Source of the DNA: Cryomorphaceae bacterium
GTDB lineage: Bacteria; Bacteroidota; Bacteroidia; Flavobacteriales; ECT2AJA-044
DNA length: 64,000 bases
Direction of reading: 5' to 3'
NCBI GenBank assembly: GCA_017798125.1
Contig: CP059070.1
Coordinates: 186,001 to 250,000, forward strand
Under the pieces are notes generated by a model. The model did not search any database and had not been told where the DNA came from. It was given only the letters and a program-made list of their open reading frames with translations. Of this stretch, positions 433 to 62,857 are shown in pieces. The first letter of the stretch is position 1. Each line of letters begins with the position of its first letter. The translations under genes and the position numbers were made by a program.

Positions 433-1643
433 TCGCTAAAAGAGCAATATCGAGCATCGTTATAGGTGTCGTCGTAATGACGGCACCTATTTGTGCTCAA
501 AACTTGATTGTTAACCCTTCTTTTGAAGAGTACAGTGTTCCTTGCGAGGATATAATTGGTCAAGGGCGAATCTATGACTCGTACGGGTGGGAGCGAGCAA
601 CTAGAAACTATAACGGAGCCAGCGATTTAATAAGCCCATGTTCTATTACTGGCTATATTCCCCCGGACGTTGTGCATGGCTTTCAACAACCTCTATACGG
701 ATTCAATTATGCTTTCATTGGTTTTGACCTAAACTGGTTTAGTCAAAGTAATCATGATTTTCTTATTGAATCCATTCAACCAACCTTAAAGGAGCCATTG
801 GTTCTAGGAAAGTGCTATCAAATAGACCTTTCCATTAGCTTGGCAGACTATTCTAGCACAGACTGGAGTTTTGGATTAGACTGTTATTTCAGTGCCGAAG
901 AGTTTACCATGGAGGTGTATTCTCCCCCTGGAATTACACCTCAAATTTCTTTCTCTAGCCTAGATACCCTTTCCAAAACAGAATGGAGAAGATTAAAAAG
1001 TTCTTTTACACCTTCAGATACGCTTAAGCACTTAACTATTGGGTGGCTTTCAAGTAATTGGGTGTTCACAGATCATTCATTTTTTGAATCTGGCTTTTTC
1101 ATCGACAACGTCGCTTTGTATCCCTGTGATGCCCCGGTGTATGTTGCAGATGCCGGTGCAGATGTAAGCGTATGTAAAGGTGATTCCGTGGAATTGTCTA
1201 CTCCGTACCGAAACGATGAATACATGTACTGGTGGGTTAACAGCTTCGGAGACACCATCAGTACAGAAAGAACGATTATGGTAGATGATTCGCCAAGCAC
1301 CTACTTCCTCGCTCAAATGGACTTTAAGTTCGACGTCACCTGGGATACTGTAAGTGTATTCAATGAATCGTGCTTGGAACTGGAACTGCCGAATGTTTTT
1401 ACACCGAATGGTGATGGTGAAAATGATGTTTGGATACCAATCGGCAAGGACATTGAGGAAATCGATTTGCAGGTCTATTCTCGCTGGGGAAAGCTCGTTT
1501 GGAGCTATTCTGGAAGATTCGACGAACTTGAAGGCTGGAACGGCGGCGCTGTCCCCGAAGGAAACTACTACCTTGTGGCCAAAGGCATAGGCAGTGACGG
1601 AAAAACCGTTGAAGAAAAGGGATCGATTACTTTATTGCGCTAG
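429..1643 (+). CDS. Secreted protein with gliding-motility-associated (type B) C-terminal domain
   Basis: A 404-residue protein starting at a GTG that overlaps the previous stop. An N-terminal signal peptide ends near PICAQ (about residue 24). The mature part opens with NLIVNPSFEEYS, typical of secreted Bacteroidota proteins with a jelly-roll-like module. The C-terminus has the gliding-associated CHU_C/type B sorting signature NVFTPNGDGEND, then YSRWGKLVW and EGNYYLV. Type B domains are T9SS signals normally used with PorP/SprF-like partners, and none is encoded here. Surface exposure is well supported; substrate or ligand is unknown. Confidence 0.88.
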   Translation: MIAKRAISSIVIGVVVMTAPICAQNLIVNPSFEEYSVPCEDIIGQGRIYDSYGWERATRNYNGASDLISPCSITGYIPPDVVHGFQQPLYGFNYAFIGFDLNWFSQSNHDFLIESIQPTLKEPLVLGKCYQIDLSISLADYSSTDWSFGLDCYFSAEEFTMEVYSPPGITPQISFSSLDTLSKTEWRRLKSSFTPSDTLKHLTIGWLSSNWVFTDHSFFESGFFIDNVALYPCDAPVYVADAGADVSVCKGDSVELSTPYRNDEYMYWWVNSFGDTISTERTIMVDDSPSTYFLAQMDFKFDVTWDTVSVFNESCLELELPNVFTPNGDGENDVWIPIGKDIEEIDLQVYSRWGKLVWSYSGRFDELEGWNGGAVPEGNYYLVAKGIGSDGKTVEEKGSITLLR

Positions 1644-16786: not shown

Positions 16787-18028
16787 ATGAAACAACTCAG
16801 CCTCCTTTGTTTCCTGATTGTGTCATTCACCACCTTTGCACAAATCTGGACGCCAATCTCTACCGGTTCGAATTACGATCTTAATTCGCGGTTCAAATCT
16901 CCCGTAGGTGAGCTCATTTATGTGCACCCAGTGGGGAATATCTCTTCAATCCGTGGAACCGTAAGGTCTTGGTATCCTTATTCATCATTTATTGTTCATC
17001 CTAACACGAACCATCCTGGCATCGCCGAACACAGTTTTGGCACCGAATGGTTTGGAGTAGAATACGGGGATGGGAAGTTGCTGCTGTCCACGGATAATTT
17101 CATTTCCTGGAATCCCATTGCCTACTTTGATCGAATCCGAGATGTGGCCTCACCGGATAGTGGGATTGTGGTTGTTCTTCAGAATAATGATCTATATCGA
17201 TCTGAGGACTATGGAGGAACTTGGGACACCATTTCATTACCCGGAGGATTCAGTTACCAAGTTCACTTTGTCAACGATCAAGTAGGTTATGCCCTAATCG
17301 AAGATTCCGGGTGGACCATTTACAGAAGTTCAGATGCCGGAATAACGTGGAATCGCAGGTATAATCATACAGATGGGATAACGAATTTTGGTCAGTTGCT
17401 GCAGTACAATTTGGTTGTCGAGTCGCAGGATGAGGTCATTTTTGTGATAGATAGAAGTAAAGTCTTTAAATCCACGAATCAGGGTGTTTCCTTTCAAGAA
17501 TTATCAGTCTCAGAAGATCTTAGCTTCCATGAGGACTTGGCTGTTTGGAACGTGGATACTTTCGCTGTTGCGGGAAGGTATGGTCTAGATTTATCCCTGG
17601 ACGGAGGCCAATCTTTTACAACTCTTTTGGTACCTCAACATATTGGGTTTCGAATAAAGACAGCCCATTTTATGGGCCCGCGAAAAATCCTATTAACCGG
17701 GGAGATTTTCGGTTCTAGTGGTGGAAGTCCTTCGACAAATATGATGCTACTGGATCTAAACAATTTGATTGGCATATCCGAGTGGAAAAGTGCTGAGGGT
17801 CAACTGTATCCAAATCCAAGTCAGGGTGAGGTTCATCTGAAGCTCGACGAGCCAATGCGTCAATGCGAGTTCGTTGTGTACGATCTACAAGGACGAGTGA
17901 TTCTTGAAGATCGCTTTGATGAGGTGGAGTCCTTGGATCTCCATCTAAATATACCCTCAGGTGTATATGTGATGACCATCTACGGTGATCACCAATACCT
18001 TTCTAGATCCTTCGAAATCATTCGATAA
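16787..18028 (+). CDS. T9SS cargo protein with BNR/YCF48-like propeller repeats
   Basis: 413 residues with signal peptide MKQLSLLCFLIVSFTTFAQ. The body contains Asp-box-like blades, for example SEDYGGTWDTI, SSDAGITWNR and STNQGVSFQEL, as in BNR/sialidase-type or YCF48-like propellers; no catalytic set of a sialidase is apparent. A type A sorting domain ends the protein (LYPNPSQGEVHLKLDE ... SFEIIR). It lies between two minus-strand cargo paralogues and overlaps the end of the next by 11 bases. Confidence 0.83.
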   Translation: MKQLSLLCFLIVSFTTFAQIWTPISTGSNYDLNSRFKSPVGELIYVHPVGNISSIRGTVRSWYPYSSFIVHPNTNHPGIAEHSFGTEWFGVEYGDGKLLLSTDNFISWNPIAYFDRIRDVASPDSGIVVVLQNNDLYRSEDYGGTWDTISLPGGFSYQVHFVNDQVGYALIEDSGWTIYRSSDAGITWNRRYNHTDGITNFGQLLQYNLVVESQDEVIFVIDRSKVFKSTNQGVSFQELSVSEDLSFHEDLAVWNVDTFAVAGRYGLDLSLDGGQSFTTLLVPQHIGFRIKTAHFMGPRKILLTGEIFGSSGGSPSTNMMLLDLNNLIGISEWKSAEGQLYPNPSQGEVHLKLDEPMRQCEFVVYDLQGRVILEDRFDEVESLDLHLNIPSGVYVMTIYGDHQYLSRSFEIIR

Positions 18029-19751
18029 GGACCTTATGGGCCCCTTGGAAGTCTTCATTGTAAATAGAGAGCACGTATAGCCCAGGTGAGAAATCTTCCA
18101 CATTCAAGGAGAATTTCGCATGCTCACTGATTCCCTGTCTCAAAACACGTCCTTGGAAGTCATGAATCGTCCAACTATACGCTACATCAGGTCCATCAAG
18201 CTCTATGTTTAGGCGGCCTTTGGTCGGATTGGGGTAAACTCTTGATGTTCTATGCTGGGAATTCAATGAAAGAGATGCGTAACAACTGGGGGTAGAGTGA
18301 TTGTTCTCCCACCATTGACTCAAGGCGTCTGCCCGTGTTTTGAGTTTAGGAATACCGGTAAACTGATCTCCTGCCTCTGGCCAAGAGAAGTGAAAAGCGA
18401 AATAGAGGGTCTTTTTTTCTCCCGGAGCTAGATCTAAGGGCCCAACATTCATGAATCCACGTTTTCTAATTGGTACAAATCCGGCTGATTCCTCTGACCA
18501 TTCATCCGTAAAATCAGGATGTGATACTCGCGGGAAATAATATTTCGTAGTTGGATCAAAAGAAGAACCATCGATCCCATTACCAGCATGGATCATGCGC
18601 CGACCATCCCTCCATCGTGCTTTTGAGAAATGATGCCAATGACTAAGCGTATTGGGTTCCCCTCCAACACCTACGCCATAGTAGAGAATGACAGATTCAA
18701 CACCATAGCGTTCACCCACTTCATCCACGATCCCATCTTGATCATCATCTACCTGATTATTTACAGGAGCAGGAGGACCCTCCATTAGTTGAATGGCCGA
18801 TACTTGAGGCGCTCTTCCCTGTAGCGCTAGCGTATCGTCAGAGCAACCGCCATTTGTATATCCATTACAGTCGTAGAATATTGCCAGTTTTCGAGGCACA
18901 TCATATTCAAATCGGTCCGCTCCATTGACAAACCCCAACTCTGCATGAAACCATAGCATTGCTCTTAAGTCAAGGATTGAATCTGATCGCTTGTTTTGGA
19001 TTGTTTGGCGCAAGAAAATCACGGAATCCATAAGTCCCCCATAGCTCCCTTCCTCATAGGCGAAAAGCAGGTTATGAATTTCCAAACCCACCTTTGCCCC
19101 CTCATCAGATCCAGGGCCTTGGCCTATGAAACTGGATGGAAGACCATCATTGTATATGGCCAATACAGCCATATCGCCTTCAACACAAGGAGCTTCTCCT
19201 AAACTTGGCTCGTATGCTCCATTTCCGTTCGAATCGGTAAACGGCGCCACTAAATACGATTGGCCAAATTGAGGCTGACCGTGGGCTGGCCACTCTTGGA
19301 TGCTATTTGGAATCTGATATCCAGGACTACCCGCGTTCTGGACGTGAAAGTCAATCTCCTGTGAAGTGGTTTTATAGGTTTTATTCCACAGAGAGATATT
19401 TCCAATCCCGCTAGACGTATAAGGCCCCGGACTAAAGTCTGTATCTGTATCGTAATTGCGCGCTGAAAGCAAAGAATCACCCTGCTGGGAAATACCTGTG
19501 TAATTAAATGCAGCTCCATAAAACGAGCTGAAACCGGATGGCCCAGCGAAAATGGAAGTATCGATAACACTCGCGTAGTCGCGCGGAATGATGGAGATTC
19601 CACCGAGAAATTCTGAAAAGAGATTTCCTTCGGAGTCGATGGTGCCGACATATTGGTTAATGTCGACCGTATCTTGATCGTAGCCTGGCGTTTGGCCAGA
19701 AGCGACGGAGATTCCCATCAGGGAAAAAGTGAATATGAGAAGTCGTTTCAT
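18018..19751 (-). CDS. T9SS type A cargo protein, paralogue 3 of 3
   Basis: The start at 19751 (MKRLLIFTFSLMGISVASG) gives 577 residues. The paralogue-family blocks recur: DSNGNGAYEPSLGEAPCVEG, DMAVLAIYND and DDDQDGIVDEVGERYG, the last again a calcium-site-like Asp loop. The C-terminal sorting domain is RVYPNPTKGRLNIEL ... KVLIE. It is more diverged from the other two than they are from each other. The separation from paralogues 1 and 2 by an opposite-strand gene suggests duplication followed by insertion or inversion. Confidence 0.84.
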   Translation of the reverse strand: MKRLLIFTFSLMGISVASGQTPGYDQDTVDINQYVGTIDSEGNLFSEFLGGISIIPRDYASVIDTSIFAGPSGFSSFYGAAFNYTGISQQGDSLLSARNYDTDTDFSPGPYTSSGIGNISLWNKTYKTTSQEIDFHVQNAGSPGYQIPNSIQEWPAHGQPQFGQSYLVAPFTDSNGNGAYEPSLGEAPCVEGDMAVLAIYNDGLPSSFIGQGPGSDEGAKVGLEIHNLLFAYEEGSYGGLMDSVIFLRQTIQNKRSDSILDLRAMLWFHAELGFVNGADRFEYDVPRKLAIFYDCNGYTNGGCSDDTLALQGRAPQVSAIQLMEGPPAPVNNQVDDDQDGIVDEVGERYGVESVILYYGVGVGGEPNTLSHWHHFSKARWRDGRRMIHAGNGIDGSSFDPTTKYYFPRVSHPDFTDEWSEESAGFVPIRKRGFMNVGPLDLAPGEKKTLYFAFHFSWPEAGDQFTGIPKLKTRADALSQWWENNHSTPSCYASLSLNSQHRTSRVYPNPTKGRLNIELDGPDVAYSWTIHDFQGRVLRQGISEHAKFSLNVEDFSPGLYVLSIYNEDFQGAHKVLIE

Positions 19752-19788
19752 GGAGACATAGGTGTAGGCGAAAAATAGGAAAAATGCA

Positions 19789-19809
19789 GGCATCGCGCCA
19801 TAGGCGCAT
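19789..19809 (+). repeat. REP-like short hairpin
   Basis: GGCATCG then GCGCC-ATA-GGCGC followed by an A-rich run. Same family as the element at 16734; it abuts the next terminator. Confidence 0.6.
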
Positions 19810-19810
19810 A

Positions 19811-19834
19811 AAAAAACCCCGAGCATTCGGGGTT
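19811..19834. terminator. Bidirectional-type terminator hairpin
   Basis: AACCCCGA / TCGGGGTT stem with a GCAT loop; on the minus strand it is followed by a long T run (complement of the A run at 19808-19816). It ends the metH-metF-direction transcript and lies just downstream of a possible 39-codon gene. Confidence 0.85.
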
Positions 19835-20084: not shown

Positions 20085-21038
20085 TTAGAAGACCTGCTTG
20101 GCGATTTGTGCAATGTTATCGGGCTTGCCCATGGTGTAGAAATGGAGGACAGGAGCTCCTCGCTCAATCAATTCCTTACACTGTTCCACGGCCCACTCAA
20201 TCCCCACCTGACGAACCTCCGCATTATTCTTGGCCTTGAGGGCCGCATCCGCGAGGTCTTCGGGAATATCAATGTGAAAACGCTGGGGAAGCAGGCTCAA
20301 TTGACGGGCGGTCGCCAGTGGCTTTAAACCTGGAATAATGGGAATATCAATGCCCTCGCTGCGACAAAGGTCCACGAAGTCGAAGTACTTCTGGTTGTCG
20401 AAGAACATCTGTGTAACGATAAATTCAGCGCCCAGTTCCACTTTCTTTTTCAACCACTTCAAATCGTTTTTCATGTTGGGGGCCTCGAAGTGCTTTTCGG
20501 GGTAACCGGCCACTCCCGCGCAAAACGAAGTCGGCTGCGCATTGCGCAATTCGTCCTCCAAATAGCGGCCCTGATTCATGTCCATGACCTGAGCCAGGAG
20601 CTCAGAGGCATACTGGTGCCCGTCTTGTTCTGCCTTAAAATAGGTTTCGGTTTTGATGGGGTCTCCCCGAAGAACCAAGACATTGTCGATGCCCAAAAAG
20701 TGCAAGTCAATCAATGCGTTTTCGGTTTCCTCTTGGTTGAAGCCACCGCAAATGAGGTGCGGTACGGCATCCACCTGATACTTGTTCTGGATGGCTGCAC
20801 AAATGGCCACTGTACCGGGACGTTTGCGGGTCACTCGGCGTTCCAACAACCCGTTCCCCCGATCGCGAAAGACAAATTCCTCGCGGTGGTAGGTCACATC
20901 GATAAAGGGCGGATTAAACTCCATCAAGGGGTCTATGGCCCCGAAAATACCATCGATGGTTTCCCCCTTCAATGGAGGAAGAATTTCAAAGGAAAAAAGG
21001 GTGCCCTTATTCTGGGCGATATGTTCGGTAATCTTCAT
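20085..21038 (-). CDS. metF: 5,10-methylenetetrahydrofolate reductase
   Basis: A 317-residue TIM-barrel flavoenzyme that reduces methylene-THF to 5-methyl-THF, the methyl donor for MetH. Typical segments are FSFEILPPLKG near the N-terminus, DVTYHREE, HLICGGFNQEE, VLRGDP and FIVTQMFFDN. It starts one base after the metH stop, in the same orientation, so methyl donor and methyl transfer are made from one transcript under the SAM-I riboswitch upstream of the operon. Confidence 0.97.
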   Translation of the reverse strand: MKITEHIAQNKGTLFSFEILPPLKGETIDGIFGAIDPLMEFNPPFIDVTYHREEFVFRDRGNGLLERRVTRKRPGTVAICAAIQNKYQVDAVPHLICGGFNQEETENALIDLHFLGIDNVLVLRGDPIKTETYFKAEQDGHQYASELLAQVMDMNQGRYLEDELRNAQPTSFCAGVAGYPEKHFEAPNMKNDLKWLKKKVELGAEFIVTQMFFDNQKYFDFVDLCRSEGIDIPIIPGLKPLATARQLSLLPQRFHIDIPEDLADAALKAKNNAEVRQVGIEWAVEQCKELIERGAPVLHFYTMGKPDNIAQIAKQVF

Positions 21039-21039
21039 T

Positions 21040-23712
21040 TCAGTATCCCAAATTTGAACTCAAATAACGCTCGGCTTCGTCTTGTGAAACCCCGCGCCGT
21101 GTGGCATAATCCGCCACTTGATCTTCCTTAATACGTCCCAGTCCAAAGTACTTGGCCTTCGGATGGGCAAAATAGTACCCACTCACACTCGCGGCGGGGT
21201 ACATAGCTAGGTTTTCCGTCAGCGACACGCCTGTATTGGCCTCGGCATCCAACAAACGGAAAAGTGTTTTTTTCTCCTGGTGATCGGGGCAAGCCGGATA
21301 TCCGGGTGCGGGACGAATCCCCTGATAGCGCTCCTTGATCAATTCCTCGTTGTTGAGGGTTTCCTCGTTCGCATAACCCCAGAAATCTCGTCGAACTTTC
21401 TGGTGCATCAGCTCCGCAAAAGCTTCGGCCAAACGGTCCGCCAAGGCCTTGACCATGATGGAATGGTAATCGTCGTGATCGGCTTCGTAGGCCTCCAAAA
21501 GCGGTTCAATGCCATGCCCCGCCGTGACCACAAATCCTCCGACATAGTCCTCTAAGCCGGTGTCCTTAGGGGCTACAAAATCCGCGAGGGCATAGTTGGG
21601 TTGCCCCTTCGCCTTCTGCGTTTGCTGACGCAAGGTGAGCAACACCTCCTGCGCCTCACGGCGCGATGCATCACCGTACACCTCTATATCATCACCCACC
21701 GCGTTCGCTGGCCAAAGACCAACTGCAGCCTTAGCGGTCAATCGCTTGTTCACGATCAAGTCCTCTAATAGGTTACGCGCTTCTTCATAGAGCTTTGTGG
21801 CTTCCACGCCAACCACCTCATCGTCCAGAATGGCCGGGAACTTTCCATACAACTCCCAGGTCTGGAAGAAGGGCGTCCAATCAATGTACTGAGCAATCTC
21901 CCTCAGATCATAGTCCTCAAAAACCTGCACCCCAGTTTTGCGCGGGGTGTAGACGTCTTCCGCCTTCCAATCGATGGCCGTTCTATTGGCCCGTGCAGCT
22001 TCCAAGGTGGCGTATCGCTTTTCGCGATTGCGTTCCCAGTAGCCCTCTCTTAGACGCGTGTACTCATCGGTCAGGTCGGCCCAGTAGTCGTCCTTGGCGT
22101 TCTTGTTCAAGAGCTTTCCCGCGACGTTGACGGCTCTTGAGGCATCCAGAACGTGTACCACGGGCTCTTCCCGCTCCGGTACAATCTTCACCGCTGTATG
22201 CGCTCTACTCGTGGTCGCTCCACCAATGAGCAAGGGTTGGTTCAAGCCTTGACGCTTCATCTCTTTGGCCACATAAACCATCTCGTCCAAAGACGGGGTA
22301 ATGAGTCCACTGAGGCCCACAATATCCACCTCGTGCTCAACGGCCGCTTCCAATATTTTCTCCGGGGCCACCATAACCCCTAAATCCACGACTTCATAGT
22401 TGTTGCAGGCCAGGACCACACTGACAATGTTTTTTCCGATGTCGTGCACGTCCCCTTTGACCGTGGCCAACAAAATCTTCCCTGCTTTGCGCCCGGCCGT
22501 TTCTTTTTCCTCCTCTAGGTAAGGCAGCAAATAAGCCACAGCCTTCTTCATCACCCGAGCGCTCTTCACGACCTGAGGTAAGAACATCTTTCCCGAGCCA
22601 AACAAGTCTCCCACAACATTCATCCCCGCCATCAAAGGTCCCTCGATGACTTCCAAGGGCTTGTCCAATGCTTGACGGGCCTCTTCGACGTCTTCATCGA
22701 TGAATTCAACAATTCCCTTGATTAAGGCGTGCTCCAATCGCTCGGCATAGGAGCCTTCTCTCCAGCGCAGGTCCTTTTCCGCCTTGGCATTCTCGGTACC
22801 TCGGTACTTCTCGGCGAGCTCGAGCAGGCGTTCGGTCGCATCGTCCCGACGGTCGAGCAATACATCTTCCACATGATCCAGTAGCTCCTTATCGATCTCA
22901 TCATAGACCTGCAGCATGGTGGGGTTCACAATCCCCATATTCATCCCATGCTGAATGCCGTGGTACAAGAAAGCACTGTGCATGGCTTCACGGACTGCGG
23001 TGTTCCCGCGGAAACTAAAGCTCACATTACTCACCCCTCCACTAACCTGCGCACCCGGCAGGTTCTCACGAATCCACTTGGCCGCTCTGAAGAAGTCAAC
23101 CGCGTTCTTTCGATGTTCGTCCATTCCCGTGGCCACCGGAAAGATGTTCGGGTCAAAAATGATGTCTTGTGGAGTAAACTTGACCTTGTCCACCAGCACT
23201 CGATACGCCCGCTCACAAATGCTGATTCTGCGCTCGTAGGTATCCGCCTGGCCTTGCTCGTCAAAAGCCATGACCACAACCGCGGCACCGTAGCGTTTAA
23301 TCTTTCTCGCCTGTTCTATGAACTCCTCTTCTCCACCCTTTAGGGAAATGGAATTCACCACTGATTTACCCTGTACGCAACGAAGTCCTGCTTCGATCAC
23401 ATCCCACTTGGAGCTATCGATCATGATAGGTATGCGCGCAATATCCGGTTCGGCAGCCAGAAGGTTCAAGAATTTGGTCATGGCCGCGGCTCCATCAATG
23501 AGCCCTTCGTCCATGTTCACATCCAAAATCTGTGCACCACCTTCGACTTGGTCGCGCGCCACCTCAAGCGCTTCATCATACTTGTCCTCCTTAATCAGGC
23601 GCAAAAATCGACGAGATCCGGTCACGTTGGTCCGCTCCCCGATGTTGACGAAGTTGCTGTCTGGCCGCACAATGAGCGGCTCCAGTCCGCTTAATTGAAG
23701 GTACTGACTCAT
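21040..23712 (-). CDS. metH: Cobalamin-dependent methionine synthase, pterin/B12/activation half
   Basis: An 890-residue protein carrying three of the four MetH modules: the folate-binding barrel (about 15-290), the cobalamin-binding module with DVHDIG at 421-426 (His423 is the lower cobalt ligand), and the C-terminal AdoMet reactivation domain ([12 protein letters not shown] region near 800). The homocysteine module is a separate upstream gene overlapping by four bases (ATGA). The two polypeptides together equal one full-length MetH. This split is known in other Bacteroidota and is not a frameshift: each part has its own start and stop. Confidence 0.96.
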
Positions 23713-24710
23713 ACGGCAGTGTGTTCGGGGTGATGGGCTCTGGGGCTATACTTCGCCGCAGTTTCGGCAATGACCCGAATATGATCCGGAGTGGTTCCAC
23801 AGCAACCACCAATCACGTTCACCAAGTTTAACTTTAAGTACTCTTCCACCAATCGCCCCATGGCTTCGGGGCTTTGATCATAATCACCAAAGGCGTTCGG
23901 TAAACCCGCATTGGGGTACACACTCACACGGAAGGGAGAGATTCGGCCTAAGGTCTGCACATAGGGGAAAAGCTGTTCCGCGCCAAGGGCACAGTTGAAC
24001 CCTATTGAAAACAAATCCATGTGGCTCATGCTGACCAAGAAAGCTTCCGGCGTTTGACCACTCAAGGTCCGGCCCGAAGCATCCGTGATGGTTCCCGAAA
24101 CCATAACAGGTACTCGATTACCTCGGCGCTCAAATTCCTCTTCAATGGCAAACAGGGCCGCTTTGGCATTAAGCGTGTCAAAAATGGTCTCCACCAAAAG
24201 AATGTCCGAACCACCATCGAGCAATCCTTTGGCCTGTTCTTGATACTGTTCCCGCAAATCGTCAAAGGTCATCGCTCGATACCCCGGATCATTGACGTCC
24301 GGTGAAAGACTGAGCGTCTTGTTGGTCGGACCCATGGCTCCGGCCACAAATCGAGGTCGATCGGTGAATTTGGCACAGGCCTCTTTCGCAAGGGCAGCAG
24401 AGGCCCGATTGATCTCGTAGGTGTACTCTTCAGTTCCGTAGTCGCCTTGTGCCACTCGGGTTCCCGAAAAGGTGTTCGTTTCGACCAAGTCCGCCCCTGC
24501 TTCGAGGTATTCCTCGTGTATACCCCGAATAATATCGGGCTGGGTAAGGGAAAGTAGGTCGTTGTTTCCTTTTAAATCGCTTGGCCAATCGGCAAACTGT
24601 GCTCCCCGGTAATCTGTTTCTTCCAGCTTATGTCGCTGGATCATGGTTCCCATGGCGCCGTCCAATACCAGGATGCGCTCACGGGCTATATCTTCTATCA
24701 AATGACTCAT
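23709..24710 (-). CDS. Methionine synthase homocysteine-binding subunit (MetH N-terminal module)
   Basis: The ATG at 24710 gives 333 residues ([21 protein letters not shown]); longer upstream reading runs into the riboswitch and is rejected. It is the zinc-dependent homocysteine S-methyltransferase barrel: [10 protein letters not shown] near 16, VETNTFSGT near 77, and zinc ligands C240 (GFNC) and C303/C304 ([10 protein letters not shown]). It must act with the folate/B12 polypeptide encoded immediately downstream. It is the first gene of the operon, under the SAM-I riboswitch. Confidence 0.95.
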
Positions 24711-24738
24711 GCCTCTGTATTTGAGGCTTATCGAGAAA
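24711..24738 (-). promoter_or_regulatory. Likely expression platform of the SAM-I riboswitch
   Basis: On the minus strand a 5-bp hairpin (GCCTC...GAGGC, 24727-24711) abuts the start codon. Just upstream, TTTCTCGATAAG (24738-24727) can pair at 11 of 12 positions with the aptamer's 5' strand CTTATCAAGAAA (24868-24857), in competition with P1. This implies translation-level switching; the mechanism is inferred. Confidence 0.55.
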
Positions 24739-24773
24739 GTAGTAAGGGATGGGGTGAAGTGTGCTGGACTTCG

Positions 24774-24868
24774 CTCATCTCTCTCCTTCTTCGGAGTGGG
24801 ATTTAGCACCCGGCTCTTCCGGGTTGCCAAGACGTCAAAGGGCCCTTCCCTCAGTCTTTCTTGATAAG
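24774..24868 (-). promoter_or_regulatory. SAM-I (S-box) riboswitch
   Basis: Read on the minus strand, all S-box elements are present. P1 is CTTATC with GATGAG; P2 is AAGAC with GTCTT. The GAGGGA kink-turn and GGCCC pseudoknot strand follow, then TTGGCAACC, a P3 hairpin (CCCGG/CCGGG), the conserved GTGCTAAATCCC joint, a P4 hairpin (CTCC/GGAG) and AGAGATGAG. It should repress the downstream metH-metF operon when S-adenosylmethionine is abundant. A near-consensus promoter element (TATTTTG, 24881-24875) sits just upstream, so the transcript would begin at the aptamer. Confidence 0.94.
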
Positions 24869-24990
24869 CAGCCACAAAATACGGGACCAAAGCTTGAATT
24901 TCCAAGAAAAATTGAAAATAACTCTGAGCATGGCATTGGGAAGCACTCGAGAATGGATAAAAAGGGTCAAGGTTTTCTCATGAAAGTCTT

Positions 24991-24998
24991 TATATTTG
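24991..24998 (+). promoter_or_regulatory. Candidate -7 promoter element for metK
   Basis: TATATTTG matches TAnnTTTG exactly. Transcription would start about 7 bases later, right at the 5' edge of the SAM-II aptamer. Confidence 0.6.
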
Positions 24999-25011
24999 CC
25001 GCCACTATACG

Positions 25012-25061
25012 GGTGGAAGGATTTGTCTGATTGCAACCACGCTAAAAAATGCTAAAGCAGG
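25012..25061 (+). promoter_or_regulatory. Probable SAM-II riboswitch
   Basis: The segment has the SAM-II pattern: P1 GTGG (25013-25016) with CCAC (25037-25040), an AGGATTTG loop, the conserved TTGCAA, an A-rich linker, GCTAAA, and a 3' CAGG (25058-25061) that can pair with TCTG in the loop to form the pseudoknot. An alternative 8-bp hairpin (AAATGCTA 25047-25054 with TAGCATTT 25069-25076) would compete with it. Position at the transcript start before metK fits feedback by SAM. It is called from memory of the consensus, not from a covariance search. Confidence 0.75.
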
Positions 25062-25123
25062 TTTTCCCTAGCATTTATCGGACATCCAAGCCACTGCATG
25101 AACGCAAAAAGAGCAGTAGGAAT

Positions 25124-26386
25124 ATGTCTTATTACTTCACTTCAGAATCTGTGTCCGAAGGGCACCCCGATAAAGTCGCTGACCAAATTAGCGATGCCAT
25201 TCTCGACCACTTTTTGGCCTTTGACAGTCAGAGCAAAGTAGCCTGTGAAACCTTAGTGACGACTGGTCAAGTAGTCTTGGCTGGAGAGATTAAATCCAAC
25301 ACATATTTGGATGTCCAAAACATCACTCGCGACGTGATCAACCGCATTGGATATACCAAGAGCGAGTATATGTTCGAAGGAAACAGCTGTGGTATTTTCA
25401 GCGCACTGCACGAGCAGAGTGCGGACATCAACCAAGGAGTTGATCGCGGTTCTTTGGAAGAGCAAGGAGCAGGCGATCAGGGGATGATGTTCGGTTTCGC
25501 AACGAATGAGACTCAGAACTACATGCCTCTGGCACTGGCTTTAAGCCACCTCATCCTAGAGGAGCACGCTGCTTTGCGTCGTGAAGGAGATCAAATCCCC
25601 TATTTGCGTCCTGATGCCAAGTCCCAGGTGACCATTGAATACAATGACGACCACCAACCTATTCGCATCAAAGACATTGTGGTCAGTACCCAGCACGACG
25701 ACTTTGACGAAGAGTCCGCGATGCTTGCGAAAATCAAGGAAGACATCGTCAACATCTTGATCCCTCGCGTTATTGCCAAGTGTGATGCGCGCACCCAAGC
25801 TCTATTCAACGACGATATCATCTACCACATCAACCCAACAGGGAAGTTTGTGATTGGAGGACCTCATGGAGATACCGGATTGACGGGCCGTAAGATCATC
25901 GTAGACACCTACGGTGGAAAAGGAGCCCACGGTGGTGGAGCCTTTAGCGGTAAAGATCCAAGTAAGGTGGACCGCAGTGCAGCTTACGCAACTCGCCACA
26001 TCGCCAAAAACTTGGTGGCGGCAGGTGTTGCAGACCAAATCTTGGTTCAGGTGAGCTACGCGATTGGAGTGGTTGAGCCGATGGGCGTCTTTGTCGACAC
26101 CTATGGAACGGCGAACGTCGACTTGAGCGATGGAGAGATCGCCGCGAAAGTAACTGAGCTCTTCGACCTCCGTCCGGGATTCATCGAAAAGAACTTGAAG
26201 TTGCGTCAGCCGATGTACGGTGAGAGTGCGGCGTACGGTCACATGGGACGCACCAATGAGGTGGTCACCAAGACCTTTACTCGCCCCAGTGGGAATGGTC
26301 TAGAAACCATTGAACGCGAAGTGGAACTCTTCACTTGGGAGAAGCTGGATCGCGTCGACGACATCAAGGCAGCGTTTGGGCTGTAA
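25124..26386 (+). CDS. metK: S-adenosylmethionine synthetase
   Basis: 420 residues from the ATG at 25124 (MSYYFTSESVSEGHPDKVADQ), the conserved family N-terminus; it makes SAM from methionine and ATP. Other landmarks are GAGDQGMMFGFATNE, GGPHGDTGLTGRKII and GGAFSGKDPSKVDRSAAY. An in-frame ATG at 25049 would add 25 residues but lies inside the riboswitch, so the downstream start is preferred. It is divergent from the metH-metF operon, and each side has its own SAM-sensing RNA. Confidence 0.98.
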   Translation: MSYYFTSESVSEGHPDKVADQISDAILDHFLAFDSQSKVACETLVTTGQVVLAGEIKSNTYLDVQNITRDVINRIGYTKSEYMFEGNSCGIFSALHEQSADINQGVDRGSLEEQGAGDQGMMFGFATNETQNYMPLALALSHLILEEHAALRREGDQIPYLRPDAKSQVTIEYNDDHQPIRIKDIVVSTQHDDFDEESAMLAKIKEDIVNILIPRVIAKCDARTQALFNDDIIYHINPTGKFVIGGPHGDTGLTGRKIIVDTYGGKGAHGGGAFSGKDPSKVDRSAAYATRHIAKNLVAAGVADQILVQVSYAIGVVEPMGVFVDTYGTANVDLSDGEIAAKVTELFDLRPGFIEKNLKLRQPMYGESAAYGHMGRTNEVVTKTFTRPSGNGLETIEREVELFTWEKLDRVDDIKAAFGL

Positions 26387-30769: not shown

Positions 30770-30779
30770 TATCTTCTTG

Positions 30780-30852
<73 letters not shown>

Positions 30853-42726: not shown

Positions 42727-45700
42727 TTACTTCTGGATCACCAGGCGGCGGTTGTCTGAGTCTGTTCCGTTGCTGATCACTACGTAGTATACTCCGTTGG
42801 CCAAGTCAGCAACATCCAAGCGAACTTTACCCGTCAAGGCATTCGCTTCAGTTGTGCTCATGACAACTTGTCCAAGTCCGTTCACCACATTGATCTCCAA
42901 GTTTTGCTCACTTGAGAACTCATATCCTACGAACACTACATCTGATGTTGGGTTCGGATACAAGCTGATCATCTCGCTCAACGCTGGCTCTTCGATGCCT
43001 ACTCCTGAGATTGGGCTTTGATCTACTACTACGCTTGATACTTGCGAACATCCGTTTGCGTCGGTCACCACTACAGAGTACGTACCGTTTGGTAGGCTTA
43101 CTGCTGTTTGAGTGAACTGTGCTGGTACACTGTTCCACTGGTAGCTGTAAGGTGGTGTTCCACCGCTCACATTAGCTACTGCCGATGAGGCACTAGTACC
43201 CGCATCATAAACAGCGGTTACGATAAGCTCGGTAGGCTCGCTGATGATTACTGAGTTGTTGGCGGTACATCCGTTCGCATCAGTCACCACTACAGAGTAT
43301 GTTCCTGCAGATAGGTTGTTGATGTTCTGGGTGTTGTCACCAGTGTTCCAAGCAATCGTGTAAGGAGGTGTACCTCCGCTCACGTTCAAGCTAGCTGATC
43401 CGTCTGATCCACCGAAGCAGTTCACGTTGCTCTGTACGATGCTCGTAGCGATCGCGCTGTTCTGAGTGATGGTCGCACTTGCGTTCACCACACATCCATT
43501 CGCGTCAGTGATCACAACGTTGTAGCTACCCGCTACTACGTTCAACAGATCCTCTGTATTCGCTCCGTTGCTCCATGCGTAGCTGTATGGTGCAGTACCA
43601 CCAGTTACCGTCAAGTCAACAGTTCCAGTTGCATCTCCGAAGCAGTTCACATTCGTTACCGTAGTCGAAGCTACCAAAGCAGCTGGCTCGCCTACAGTCA
43701 CACTCGCAGTGAACGTACATCCGTTCGCATCAGTAATCACTCCTGAGTAGATACCCGCTGGTACGTTGCTCAAGTCTTGGCTGATCGCTCCGTTGCTCCA
43801 AGCGTAGCTGTATGGAGGTGTTCCACCCGTCACGGTAATGTCTACCGCTCCGTCTGTTCCACCGTTACAGCTTACGTTCGTTACAACCGCGTTGCTTACT
43901 GTGATTCCTGTTGCTGGCTCAGTGATCACGATCGTTGCGCTAATGCTACATCCGTTCGCATCCGTTACTGTTCCTGTGTATGAACCTGCTGGTACGTTCA
44001 TCAAGTCTTGAGTCACTGCACCGTTGCTCCAGTTGTAGGTGTATGGTGCTGTACCGCCAGTAACCGTAAGGTCAATCATACCGGTGCTTGCTCCGTTACA
44101 CAATACATCTGTTACTACTGCGCTGGCAGCCAAAGCAGAAGCAGGTCCCGCTACAGTTACCGTTGCAGAGAAGGTACATCCAGCCGCATCGGTTACCGTA
44201 CCGGTGTACGATCCTGCTGGAATGTTGCTCAAGTCTTCAGTGTTGTCTCCATTGCTCCACATGAAGCTGTATGGAGGCGTACCACCTGTTACTGTGATAT
44301 CAATCGCTCCTGTTGCATCACCGAAGCACAATACGTCGGTTACAACAGCACTTACGCTGATTGGCGATGCTGGTCCGTTAACAACCGCACTTGCAGTTGT
44401 GCTACATCCGTTCGCATCTGTGATGATTACGGTGTATGTTCCAGGTGCCAAGTTCGTGCGATCCTCGCTGGTGATTCCGCCACCCCAGTTGTAGGTGTAT
44501 GGCATTGTTCCACCTGTTACGGTTACATCAACCGTTCCGTTGTTCGCTCCGAAGCAGTCTACATCTGTAGCTACTGTTGTCGCAGTCAACAAGCTAGGCT
44601 CGGTCAAGGTCGTAGAAGCACTTACTGTAGCTCCACAAGCATCGGTTACGTTGATGATGTAAACACCAGCAGCCAATCCTGTACGATCTTCGATTCCAGT
44701 GACACCGTCACTCCAAGTAATGGTGTATGGCATCGTTCCTCCAGTGATCGTTGACATGATCATACCGTCCATTCCGCTGTTACAGCTTGGGTTGGTCGTC
44801 GCATCAATCGTTACCGCCAACATATCTGGCTCACTAATCACTACTGTATTGGTCGCGGTACATCCGTTCGCATCAGTTACCGTCACGCTGTACGTGCCAG
44901 CTCCCAAGTTAGACAGATCCTCAGTGTTCGCTCCATTGCTCCAGTTGAAGCTGTATGGTGCAGTTCCTCCTGCTGGAGCCAAGTCGATAGAACCTGTAGT
45001 TGCTCCGTTACAGTCAACATCTGTAGCCTTCGCTACTGTCGCCAACAATTGAGATGGCTGATCAACAACCAATCCTTTGATGAAGGTCTGACATCCATTC
45101 GCATCCGTTACCGTCACTTGGTATCCACCAGCAAACAAGTCTTGTGGATTCTGTACGGTAGCTCCGTTGCTCCAGCTGAAGCTGTATGGTGTTGTTCCAC
45201 CTGTTACCGAGATATCGATAAATCCAGTGTTGTCACCGAAGCAAGTAAATACATCCTGTACGGATACTAGTGATGCAGCCAATGGCGAAGTAGGTCCAGT
45301 TATCGTCACAACGTTACTGGTTACCATACATCCGTTCGCATCCGTTACGTCTACAAAGTAGCTACCACCTGAGATCAAGTTGTCAATCGACGCTGTCGTC
45401 GCTCCATTGCTCCACATGTAGCTGTATGGCATTGTTCCACCACTCACTACTACGCTCACCATTCCAGTAGCATCACCGAAGCAGTTCACATTTGTTGCAG
45501 AAGCTACAGCACTCAGACTTGTAGACTGTGTTACTGTGATTCCAGAGATTCCATCAGTACATCCGTTCGCATCGGTAATCGCTACTGCGTATACACCCGC
45601 TGGAATACCACTCAAGTCTTGAGTCGTTGCACTGAACAATGGATCATCGCTCGTCCATGCATACGTGTATGGAGATGTTCCTCCTGATACGCTGATGTCG

Positions 45701-48700
45701 ATCGCTCCAGTTGTCGCTCCGTTACATCCAATATTGGTTACACTCTCTACTCCGCTAGCCAAAGCTGATGCAGGTTCAGAGATGGTTACACTCAAGAATT
45801 CTTGACATCCGTTCGCATCGGTAATGGTTACTGAGTTCACACCCGCCATAAGGTCGGTTGGGTCTTGTACCATTGATCCGTTGCTCCACATGTAGCTGTA
45901 TGGAAGCGTTCCACCTACTACGTAGATATCTGCTGTTCCATCCATTCCTCCGTTACAGCTTACATCCGTAAAGCCGATTACAGAAGCATACAAGCTTGAG
46001 AATGGCTCTGTGATAACAAAGCTCTGTACCGTTGTACATCCGTTAGCATCCTCTACTACTACACTGTAAGATCCTGCAGCCAATCCGCTGATATCTTCTG
46101 TAGTAGCTCCGTTGGTCCAGTCATACATGTATGGTGCTGTTCCTCCAGTTACGCTCAAGTCAATCGCTCCTGTAGCGTCTCCTTTACAAAGAACATCCGT
46201 ATCAACTCCTGTGACAACCAAAGTAGTCGCAGTTCCGATGGTGAATGTGGCAAAGCCTTCACAACCGTACTTATCGTTGATGCGTACTGTATACTCACCC
46301 GCACACAATCCAGCTGGATCCTGTACTGTACTCAATACTGGTCCTGTAGGCACTCCGTTTACTGAAGCTCTCCAGTAGTACGTGTATGGCGCTGTTCCTC
46401 CTGTAGGAGTCAAGTCAATCAATGAAGTTGAGCAGTCTCCAGCACAAGCAACATCCGTTACTACTGCTGTTCCACCTACTGGCATTGGCTCGTATACATC
46501 TACGCTTACTGTAGTGGCACATTGTCCCGTAGCATCGGTAATGGCTACCGTGTATGTTCCGGCAAACAATGGGTTTCCGTCAACATTCACACCAGTGCTC
46601 ATTCCAGTACCACCAGTACTCCACAAGTAGCTGTATGGAGGAATACCTCCTGTTACGCTTACTACAGAAGCCGTTGCGTTAAATCCACCTGGACACAAGA
46701 TGCTGTCCGCTGCAGTCACAACTGTCAAGCCAGCTGGCTCAGTAATCGTGAAGCTCGCTTGTGGCACAGTACATCCGTTCGCGTCTGTTACATCTACGAA
46801 GTACGTTCCAGCTCCCAATCCTGTGAAGGTGTTGCTACCTCCGTCAGTGGCAATTGAACCACTAGCGTTTGTCGCTCCGCTTACTACCCATGCGTATGGA
46901 GCTACACCACCTGAGATGGTCACAGAAGCTGTCGCATCCGTTCCTCCGTTACATGTTACGCTCGCATCGCTAACCAAATCAACTACGATTGGTGCAGGAC
47001 CAGTCTCCTCAAAGACTGCGTAATACGTACATCCTCCTACTAAGTCATCTACTTCGATGGTGTAGAAGCCTACTCCCAAGTTCACAGCATTCGCCATTCC
47101 ATTCACTACCATGCCAGACTGACCAGCAAGTGGAGTGATTGGTCCTGGGTACTGACCAGCATACCACTGGTAAGTGTATACTCCTGAACCTCCTGAGATA
47201 TTCGCTACCGCTGATCCAGTAGTATCACCGAAGCAGTCGATATCGTCTTTTCCTGTAAACGTGATGGTCAAGTCTGAAGGCTGACCAATCACTGCTTGGT
47301 CAAACTCTTTACATCCCTGTGCATCCGTTACTGTAATGTCATAAGTACCAGCGGCCAAACCACCGATCGTTCCTTCCCATGCTGTTCCTGGGAACGTGTT
47401 GTCGCTCAATCCAGTCAACATTCCGCTACCAGCAGTTGTACCATTTGACCATACCATGTCGTATGGTTGAGTACCCTGGTCGATGTTGAAAACAAACGAT
47501 CCATCAGCCAATCCGAAGCAGCTCGCATCCGTAGTAGATACTACGCTGGTGACCAACTTCGTAGGCTCTGTAATGCTCGCTGTAGCTCCAGCTGCAGGAC
47601 ATCCGTTCTGATCAATTACTGCAATTGAGTATGATCCCGGTGCCAAGCTGTTGATCACAATCGGCGCAAATGGTGCAGTCAAGAAGGTACTGTCTACCGT
47701 CGCTCCTGCTCCGTCCGTTGTTACTACAATATATGGTCCGTTTCCAGAGGTTACATCAATTTCGATGCTTCCATCATTCGCTCCATTACACGTTACATTA
47801 CCCAAAGTCAAGGCTACTGTCGCTGGATCCGTTCCATCAGCTACGAAGAATGGGAAGTCAAACTCACATCCGTTCGCATCTGTGATGGTCAAGCTATAGT
47901 TTCCTGATACTAAGTTCAACAGGTCTGTTGTACCCGCTACAGGACCGTTAGGACCTTCCCAAGCGTAGCTCAACGCTCCAGTACCACCGCTAGCAGTGAT
48001 GTGGATCTCTCCCGCTGTACCCTTAGCACAAGCTGTATTGTTTACAATGTCATCAATGACTGTTACTGCTGGAGCCTCTCCTACGTTGTAGCTCTCTGTA
48101 GCGCTACATCCGTTAGCATCCGTTACAACAACTGATACTGTCGCTCCCGCTGCCAATCCAGACAAAGAGTTGCTCGTTGTTGTCATTCCTCCATTCCAAG
48201 AGTATACATATGGTGCCGTTCCACCAGTCACCGATACAGATACGCTTCCGTCTGGTGAGTAAGTGTCCGAACCACTGTTACAGCTCGTCGGTGTAATCGT
48301 CTCCGTAATCGCAATCGATGCAGGAGCAGTTACAGTAAACTGCAATGTATCCGAATTACAACCTCCGGCACCTGCCCAGATGTTGTAGTCTCCAGGCGCC
48401 AAAGAAGAAATAGTAATTGGCGTTGTTCCAATTGCAGAGGTAACAATAGTTCCACTCAAGTCATCAACTTGAACGTAGTACTGATCCATACCAGGACCAA
48501 ATGGTCGTCCTCCAGCAAGGTTTACAGTGATCTCTCCTGATCCACCACTACAGCTTGGGTCCGTTTGACTTGCAATAGCAATTGTTGTCTCATCCGGCTC
48601 AGTAACGGTGTAAGATACGCTCTCAACACATCCGTTCGCATCTGTAACATTCACAGTGTACACTCCTCCTGGTACGCCGCTGATCGATTGACCGTTAACA

Positions 48701-49104
48701 CCGTTACTCCAAGAGTAGCTCAACATTCCTGTTCCACCACTTGCCGTTACAGAGATAAACGCATCTGTGTCTCCGAAGCAATCCAAATCTGTCTTGTTCG
48801 CAGGATCGTTAGTGATAACAATCGCCGCTGGCTCATTGATGATGATGTTCAAGTATACTACCGTACATCCTACCGCATCTGTTACCGTTACAGAGTAGTT
48901 TCCTGCTCCTAGGTTCGAGATGTCTGGTGTCGTTGCAGCGTTGCTCCACAAGTACGTGTATGGAGGTGTTCCTCCTGTTGTTCCACCGTTGTCAATCTCT
49001 CCGTCCATACCTCCGGCACATGTTACGTCCGTACGGTTGAAGTTCGCTACCTCAATGGAGCAGCTGGTTGAGTGATGACATAGTTTCCTGTTGCCGGTCC
49101 ACAT
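42727..49104 (-). CDS. Giant SprB-repeat T9SS adhesin A, C-terminal fragment (frameshifted)
   Basis: The 3' part of gene A. The true frame continues from the fragment at 49047-53555 but is broken near 49053, where one C (plus strand) is missing relative to copy B. The real coding part begins just after that point; the first ~17 residues of this frame are spurious. It holds about 25 SprB-type repeats with the pattern CxGxxDGxxxxxxxGGTxPYxYxWSNG ... TDANGC, each ~75-85 residues, then a type A T9SS domain ([17 protein letters not shown] ... RLVIQK). SprB-like proteins are mobile gliding or attachment adhesins. No sprC, sprD or sprF neighbour is present. Confidence 0.9.
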   Translation of the reverse strand: MWTGNRKLCHHSTSCSIEVANFNRTDVTCAGGMDGEIDNGGTTGGTPPYTYLWSNAATTPDISNLGAGNYSVTVTDAVGCTVVYLNIIINEPAAIVITNDPANKTDLDCFGDTDAFISVTASGGTGMLSYSWSNGVNGQSISGVPGGVYTVNVTDANGCVESVSYTVTEPDETTIAIASQTDPSCSGGSGEITVNLAGGRPFGPGMDQYYVQVDDLSGTIVTSAIGTTPITISSLAPGDYNIWAGAGGCNSDTLQFTVTAPASIAITETITPTSCNSGSDTYSPDGSVSVSVTGGTAPYVYSWNGGMTTTSNSLSGLAAGATVSVVVTDANGCSATESYNVGEAPAVTVIDDIVNNTACAKGTAGEIHITASGGTGALSYAWEGPNGPVAGTTDLLNLVSGNYSLTITDANGCEFDFPFFVADGTDPATVALTLGNVTCNGANDGSIEIDVTSGNGPYIVVTTDGAGATVDSTFLTAPFAPIVINSLAPGSYSIAVIDQNGCPAAGATASITEPTKLVTSVVSTTDASCFGLADGSFVFNIDQGTQPYDMVWSNGTTAGSGMLTGLSDNTFPGTAWEGTIGGLAAGTYDITVTDAQGCKEFDQAVIGQPSDLTITFTGKDDIDCFGDTTGSAVANISGGSGVYTYQWYAGQYPGPITPLAGQSGMVVNGMANAVNLGVGFYTIEVDDLVGGCTYYAVFEETGPAPIVVDLVSDASVTCNGGTDATASVTISGGVAPYAWVVSGATNASGSIATDGGSNTFTGLGAGTYFVDVTDANGCTVPQASFTITEPAGLTVVTAADSILCPGGFNATASVVSVTGGIPPYSYLWSTGGTGMSTGVNVDGNPLFAGTYTVAITDATGQCATTVSVDVYEPMPVGGTAVVTDVACAGDCSTSLIDLTPTGGTAPYTYYWRASVNGVPTGPVLSTVQDPAGLCAGEYTVRINDKYGCEGFATFTIGTATTLVVTGVDTDVLCKGDATGAIDLSVTGGTAPYMYDWTNGATTEDISGLAAGSYSVVVEDANGCTTVQSFVITEPFSSLYASVIGFTDVSCNGGMDGTADIYVVGGTLPYSYMWSNGSMVQDPTDLMAGVNSVTITDANGCQEFLSVTISEPASALASGVESVTNIGCNGATTGAIDISVSGGTSPYTYAWTSDDPLFSATTQDLSGIPAGVYAVAITDANGCTDGISGITVTQSTSLSAVASATNVNCFGDATGMVSVVVSGGTMPYSYMWSNGATTASIDNLISGGSYFVDVTDANGCMVTSNVVTITGPTSPLAASLVSVQDVFTCFGDNTGFIDISVTGGTTPYSFSWSNGATVQNPQDLFAGGYQVTVTDANGCQTFIKGLVVDQPSQLLATVAKATDVDCNGATTGSIDLAPAGGTAPYSFNWSNGANTEDLSNLGAGTYSVTVTDANGCTATNTVVISEPDMLAVTIDATTNPSCNSGMDGMIMSTITGGTMPYTITWSDGVTGIEDRTGLAAGVYIINVTDACGATVSASTTLTEPSLLTATTVATDVDCFGANNGTVDVTVTGGTMPYTYNWGGGITSEDRTNLAPGTYTVIITDANGCSTTASAVVNGPASPISVSAVVTDVLCFGDATGAIDITVTGGTPPYSFMWSNGDNTEDLSNIPAGSYTGTVTDAAGCTFSATVTVAGPASALAASAVVTDVLCNGASTGMIDLTVTGGTAPYTYNWSNGAVTQDLMNVPAGSYTGTVTDANGCSISATIVITEPATGITVSNAVVTNVSCNGGTDGAVDITVTGGTPPYSYAWSNGAISQDLSNVPAGIYSGVITDANGCTFTASVTVGEPAALVASTTVTNVNCFGDATGTVDLTVTGGTAPYSYAWSNGANTEDLLNVVAGSYNVVITDANGCVVNASATITQNSAIATSIVQSNVNCFGGSDGSASLNVSGGTPPYTIAWNTGDNTQNINNLSAGTYSVVVTDANGCTANNSVIISEPTELIVTAVYDAGTSASSAVANVSGGTPPYSYQWNSVPAQFTQTAVSLPNGTYSVVVTDANGCSQVSSVVVDQSPISGVGIEEPALSEMISLYPNPTSDVVFVGYEFSSEQNLEINVVNGLGQVVMSTTEANALTGKVRLDVADLANGVYYVVISNGTDSDNRRLVIQK

Positions 49105-62600: not shown

Positions 62601-62857
62601 GTATTTGCATTGTCAATTCCTGCAGCAAATGCATTCGCAGGCTCATTAACAGTATACGTCTCTACAACAGTACAGCTTCCGCTTGTTACTGTTACGGTAT
62701 AGTCACCGGCCAACAAGCCAGCAATCGCATCCGTGTTTCCACCATTACTCCAAGCGTAAGTGAAACCTCCAACACCACCACTCGCAGTAATTGCAACCGC
62801 ACCAGTCGGCTGACCAGCACATGCTACATCTGTAATATCTACATTAGAAACAACCAA
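56612..62857 (-). CDS. Giant SprB-repeat T9SS adhesin B, central fragment
   Basis: 2,081 codons, the largest open piece of gene B, spanning the junction that is broken in copy A (here [10 protein letters not shown] reads through). It begins after a 2-base deletion near 62867 and ends in nonsense after a deletion near 56694. Its repeats are the same as in A except for the missing propeller insertion, one exchanged whole repeat (B about 59290-59530, A 48318-48600, net 39 bases) and one exchanged half-repeat (B about 61200-61325, A 51015-51135, equal length). Confidence 0.88.

Follow-up and report, generated by a model that had tools for sequence, protein, structure and literature searches.

SAM-I and SAM-II aptamers on opposite strands between metH-metF and metK in a Cryomorphaceae genome and its relatives

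The intergenic region between metH-metF and metK

The window analysed here comprises 64,000 nucleotides of a Cryomorphaceae bacterium (contig CP059070.1 of assembly GCA_017798125.1, positions 186,001 to 250,000 of the forward strand), whose genome consists of a single contig of 2.84 Mb. Within it, positions 24711-25123 are the complete 413-bp gap that separates a metH-metF operon on the minus strand from metK on the plus strand, exactly as delimited, and with the flanking genes named, in an initial annotation made by reading the letters. metK (25124-26386, plus strand) encodes S-adenosylmethionine (SAM) synthetase (TIGR01034, 495 bits). A longer open reading frame (ORF) starting at 25049, with an ATG inside the leader aptamer described below, was dropped because the MetK match begins at 25124. 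MetH is split on the minus strand into a homocysteine methyltransferase half (23709-24710, aligned to residues 2-322 of the 1182 of TIGR02082) and a part carrying the folate, cobalamin and activation functions (21040-23712, aligned to residues 325-1181), followed by metF for methylenetetrahydrofolate reductase (20085-21038, minus strand; TIGR00676, 304 bits).

Rfam covariance models were applied with their curated cut-offs, the E-values referring to the 64-kb search. They confirmed the central claim of the initial annotation, that two structurally unrelated SAM aptamers face metH-metF and metK from opposite strands. A SAM-I (S box) aptamer occupies 24772-24870 on the minus strand, 61 bases 5′ of the metH AUG and on the same strand as this gene (RF00162, 75.4 bits, cut-off 44.4; model positions 1-108 of 108; E 7e-16). 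On the plus strand, the metK leader contains a SAM-II aptamer at 25007-25065 (RF01726, 66.5 bits, cut-off 44; model positions 1-60 of 60; E 1.3e-10). The initial annotation had called this element a probable SAM-II and had named a missing significant score as its refutation. That test left the claim standing, since the match is of the SAM-II type and full-length, but the classical model RF00521 (SAM_alpha) gave 14.5 bits on the metK leader, under its cut-off of 36, and the aptamer was therefore assigned to the long-loop family. The conserved strands CUGAUUGC and AUGCUAAAGCAG, which would join the P1 loop to the 3′ strand in a pseudoknot, are both present; the Rfam model leaves these pairs unscored, and the strands hardly vary. 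From the model matches we infer that both leaders would bind SAM. As the aptamers lie on opposite strands in front of two genes, they do not form a tandem riboswitch, which would sit on one transcript and serve one gene.

Putative promoter elements were found just upstream of both aptamers, suggesting that transcripts start close to them. For metK, the Bacteroidetes-type -7 element TATATTTG (24991-24998, plus strand) of the TAnnTTTG type lies just 5′ of the SAM-II aptamer. The candidate for metH, TATTTTG (24875-24881, minus strand), is weak, being one base short of TAnnTTTG, and a TTGG read from the sequence at 24905-24902 (minus strand) is a possible -33 element. Four relatives (L139, L105, L106 and L114) have a clear TAnnTTTG at the metH -7 position. 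A scan of the region for classical sigma-70 promoters returned nothing, as expected for Bacteroidetes. In the window the aptamers are separated by about 140 bp, and there is no overlap between the leaders.

Partition of the two classes and recurrence of the divergent pair

To define the distribution of the two classes, genomes were sampled from the phylum Bacteroidota and from the large order that includes the small family of this bacterium, an order to which the named relatives of its MetH also point as Flavobacteriales. Among 395 genomes of the order, SAM-II was detected in 269, SAM-I in 244 and both in 228. In the phylum sample of 148 genomes, SAM-I was the rule and was present in 127. All 17 genomes that belong to the order had SAM-II, as did 4 of the 20 from elsewhere in the class; the other 111 lacked it.

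The partition between the genes is strict. All 102 credible SAM-II loci read in the order have metK downstream, the remaining loose-pattern matches, which lie inside genes or distant from metK, having been discarded as spurious. Behind SAM-I at the loci read we found metHn (101), metY (11), an OsmC-like ORF with metZ (7), metF (2), metX (1) and metZ (1), and metK not once. At 40 metK loci from two other orders of the class, SAM-II occurred twice and SAM-I was absent. The genome under study keeps the same partition, with one SAM-II, in front of metK, and two SAM-I. The second SAM-I (G000:C1:879457-879559, minus strand; L183:5458-5560) precedes an OsmC-like ORF (PF02566), metZ, metX and thrA, the last encoding a fused aspartate kinase-homoserine dehydrogenase. 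An OsmC-like ORF between SAM-I and metZ was also seen in several families (L193, L194, L207, L208, L210 and L219). Judged by the distribution of the classes across the phylum, SAM-II looks like a metK-specific sensor that this order gained in addition to a SAM-I regulon common to the phylum. In several SAM-II leaders (L157, L163-L165, L211, L213 and L218), extra hairpins of up to ~70 nt are inserted between P1 and the 3′ strand, and the Rfam score is lowered or lost.

For the arrangement itself, about 100 loci with SAM-II were read in the order, along with 40 additional ones with SAM-I; they were chosen among the best matches listed, so that the counts are not population frequencies. A tight divergent pair was defined as two aptamers less than ~300 bp apart, with SAM-II directed toward metK and SAM-I toward metH-metF. 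The other genome examined from the same family has the same pair. The survey that the initial annotation had called for showed that the arrangement recurs across the order, with metH-metF in four coded families: f1 (2 of 2), f9 (2 of 6), f12 (18-19 of 25 SAM-II loci read) and f8 (7 of 24). Presence in the sister genome together with this recurrence excludes chance. In a further family, f3, a second version was found, in which SAM-II-metK stands opposite SAM-I-metY-metX-thrA (L162, L211 and L213); genome G029 is another candidate for this version, judged by the coordinates of the aptamers. At L137, two SAM-I cores (805-834, minus strand, and 1093-1139, plus strand) lie back to back within 300 bp as a SAM-I/SAM-I divergent pair.

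On a MetK tree the arrangement requires ~16 changes, which indicates that it was made or broken many times; one locus, L185, was entered there as a pair because of a loose-pattern label, and Rfam gives no SAM-II at this locus. At L185, L188-L190, L192 and L196, metK diverges from SAM-I-metH-metF and has no SAM-II, having lost it or never had it, and at L184 SAM-II is degenerate. Such loci are natural loss cases and can be used as controls. These observations are what would be expected if the two switches were ordinary neighbours, that is, if pathway genes cluster, each retains its old riboswitch and the divergent layout as such serves no function. In many relatives, moreover, the switches are separated by 1-10 kb or are not linked at all, and in the window the two leaders neither overlap nor share RNA. 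On the other hand, the existence of a second divergent version with another methionine operon hints at selection for the layout. So does the spacing in f12 and f8, where most aptamer pairs have 52-86 bp between them and the two promoters must abut or overlap. We give the explanation by ordinary neighbourhood slightly less than an even chance.

The short gaps might also point to a coupling at the DNA level, in which back-to-back promoters compete for RNA polymerase and the riboswitches act on top of this competition. At other divergent loci TAnnTTTG lies 5-16 bp 5′ of SAM-II, except at two, where it is farther only by the base pattern used; a TAnnTTTG-like element facing SAM-I was found at part of the loci and, where recognisable, is 6-8 bp from this aptamer. 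In the window, however, the gap of ~140 bp leaves room for two promoters, the metH element is weak, and -33 elements are not clear. We consider such a coupling unlikely.

Proposed strand exchange in the two leaders

In the metH leader, the P1 5′ strand with J1/2 (GCUUAUCAAGAAAG; 24856-24869, minus strand) is common to the aptamer and to a predicted alternative helix. Its partner in leader folds is an anti-P1 strand at 24726-24754 (minus strand), with the core CUUUCUCGAUAAGC at 24739-24726 and an upstream portion, CCCCAUCCCUUACUA, that also pairs with the 5′ strand of P2. The duplex has a calculated energy of -16.2 kcal/mol (p=0.007 versus dinucleotide shuffles). A downstream complement of the P1 5′ strand was significant (p<0.05 versus dinucleotide shuffles) in 74% of 98 SAM-I leaders, whereas the complement of the P1 3′ strand, which served as control, reached significance in just 2% of them. 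Pairing was stronger with the own leader (-14.3 kcal/mol) than with leaders whose P1 differs (about -9.6 kcal/mol).

In the SAM-I leaders, the median distance from the end of the anti-P1 strand to the AUG is 16 nt. In the window, a start-proximal hairpin, GCCUC-AAAUACA-GAGGC (24711-24727, minus strand; p=0.04 versus shuffles), shares its first two bases with the anti-P1 strand and has its 3′ end at the metH AUG; the sister genome has this hairpin too (L086, p=0.02). Complementarity of the anti strand to the start-codon segment was significant (p<0.05) in 31% of 86 SAM-I leaders and sometimes takes in the AUG itself, as at L130 and L152 (GUCAUAG/CUAUGAC). When the anti strand was freed in the folds of SAM-I leaders, accessibility of the start region fell slightly more than in shuffled sequences (Wilcoxon p=0.005). 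For the window, in silico folds left the metH AUG unpaired with a value of 0.91 when the anti-P1 helix was enforced and of 0.54 when P1 was enforced. The freed strand of the SAM-I leader would probably occlude the start codon, and would do so without a Shine-Dalgarno sequence. Such sequences are naturally absent from the mRNAs of Bacteroidetes; in Flavobacterium, which lacks them, structure close to the start tunes translation (PMC6847099).

A similar first step is supported for the metK leader. Here, a candidate anti-SAM-II strand (CCUAGCAUUUAUCGGACAUCC; 25067-25087, plus strand) can pair with AAAUGCUA of the aptamer 3′ strand (p=0.045) and with GGAU(UU)GUCUG of the 5′ strand (p=0.04). Downstream complements of the SAM-II 5′ strand (GAUUUGnC...) were significant in 50% of 92 leaders. 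Moreover, the anti-SAM-II strand changes along with the 5′ strand, as exact six-base complements were observed 24 times versus 0.7 expected, and cognate pairing is stronger than foreign pairing (-8.5 vs -5.8 kcal/mol). The aptamer 3′ strand GCUAAAGCA likewise has a downstream complement that is clear in the window and in some clades, but this pairing was significant at only 14% of loci and is regarded as secondary. Just 5′ of the metK start, the sequence contains a short ACUGC...GCAGU complementarity (25093-25117, plus strand).

Folding of the metK leader revealed no SAM-dependent change at the AUG. This output step, which folding did not pin down, and the loci described above at which SAM-II is missing or degenerate would fit the view that one of the two RNAs, the SAM-II being the likelier, is a non-switching relic in the genome under study. 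However, the SAM-II score over the full model is near the best of the order, and the aptamer is intact in the sister genome (MetK 91% identical) although the remaining leader has drifted. We consider a relic very improbable.

Taken together, the region probably controls the two divergent units through a pair of SAM-off switches that are independent of each other and work by strand exchange. Each transcript would begin at or shortly 5′ of its own aptamer. When SAM is scarce, the downstream strand would pair with the 5′ strand of the aptamer and hold it open, and the gene would be on; on binding of SAM, the aptamer would close and free the downstream strand. In the metH leader, this freed strand would permit the hairpin that ends at the start codon, so that translation would be blocked with no Shine-Dalgarno sequence required. 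For metK, the lack of a terminator speaks for control at the level of translation. In this way SAM-I would guard methionine synthesis and SAM-II would guard SAM synthesis. The SAM-off direction of both switches is what we infer from the sequences.

Several points weigh against this proposal. The evidence is purely that of sequence, the loci are related, so that independent cases are fewer than the counts, and the base composition of the clades may inflate the contrast between cognate and foreign pairing. In the window, AUG accessibility alone changes, and the wider start region shows no SAM-dependent change of structure (p=0.92). For SAM-II, occlusion of the start codon is unconvincing, as accessibility changes very little (0.032, against 0.013 for shuffled sequences). 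Furthermore, terminator-like hairpins occur in 18 of 98 SAM-I leaders elsewhere, so that some members of the family make use of transcription control. Both switches might accordingly act by transcription attenuation, factor-independent or through Rho, rather than at the start codon, as is known for SAM-II of Proteobacteria, which is mostly a terminator switch (PMC2258182). However, no terminator-like site was detected at 24600-25300, which covers both leaders of the window, and none in 90 SAM-II leaders, so that we regard attenuation of both genes as rather unlikely.

Elsewhere in the window, a tRNA-Met gene (CAT anticodon; 30779-30852, minus strand) lies where long ORFs of both strands overlap. 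Two proteins of >2000 residues (42727-49104 and 56612-62857, minus strand) each contain ~24 SprB repeats and a type IX secretion tail and are probably gliding-type adhesins. Next to the metF end of the operon, two more genes (16787-18028, plus strand, and 18018-19826, minus strand) encode proteins that have C-terminal sorting domains for type IX secretion.

Relation to known SAM riboswitches and implications

Both RNA families are known, and both aptamers score as full members of them. Weinberg et al. (2010, PMC2864571) reported the SAM-II long-loop family (RF01726) from Bacteroidetes and from marine sequence. The main text of that report describes neither a divergent partner nor a downstream anti strand, and the conserved anti strand is added here. 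The metH leader resembles the S box in that P1 competes with an alternative helix. The switching strand of the S box is the 3′ strand of P1. In the metH leader, by contrast, the P1 5′ strand is captured, the 3′ strand gives no signal, and a terminator is absent from the window. In well-studied S boxes, P1 sequesters the switching strand, which otherwise forms an antiterminator (PMC3656099).

Joint use of two SAM aptamer classes has a parallel in the tandem SAM-II/SAM-V and SAM-II/SAM-I-IV riboswitches (PMC9481103). Those serve one gene on one transcript, whereas the aptamers described here control two opposite pathway steps from opposite strands, and the review cited includes neither a pair of SAM-I and SAM-II nor a divergent pair. 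Barrick and Breaker (2007) found both classes in Bacteroidetes as a phylum but in no single species (PMC2258182), in contrast to the 228 of 395 genomes of the order that contain both. A search of the open-access literature found no account of two such aptamers set back to back, of so strict a partition of genes or of this topology of the SAM-I platform, which does not in itself prove novelty. Within the scope of that search, the new features are the layout, the strict assignment of one class to metK and of the other to methionine genes, and the strand-exchange platform proposed for both leaders.

The initial annotation had also proposed that methionine synthesis and SAM synthesis are shut off at different SAM levels. 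By analogy with characterised members of the two classes this is plausible for metH-metF and metK, since the classes differ in their discrimination of SAM over S-adenosylhomocysteine (SAH), ~80-fold for SAM-I and >1000-fold for SAM-II (PMC6914780), and since the partition of classes to genes is strict. Adjacency is dispensable for this idea; many relatives carry the two switches kilobases apart or elsewhere, and several without SAM-II keep the divergent SAM-I. A more far-reaching proposal is a dedicated two-sensor SAM homeostat, in which SAM-II would solely control SAM synthesis and SAM-I solely methionine synthesis, each responding to a different level of SAM (or SAM/SAH), through a Bacteroidota-specific occlusion of the start codon by strand exchange without Shine-Dalgarno sequences, repeatedly built into one back-to-back region. 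We advance this proposal tentatively, as a possibility that falls short of being probable.

Two unrelated RNA sensors for one metabolite at consecutive pathway steps in one cell make it possible to test why several SAM riboswitch classes persist. The strand-exchange design would likewise show in concrete terms how a riboswitch can act on translation in bacteria that make no use of Shine-Dalgarno sequences. For the order as a whole, the division of labour between the two classes points to a control of SAM supply into which two sensors are built.
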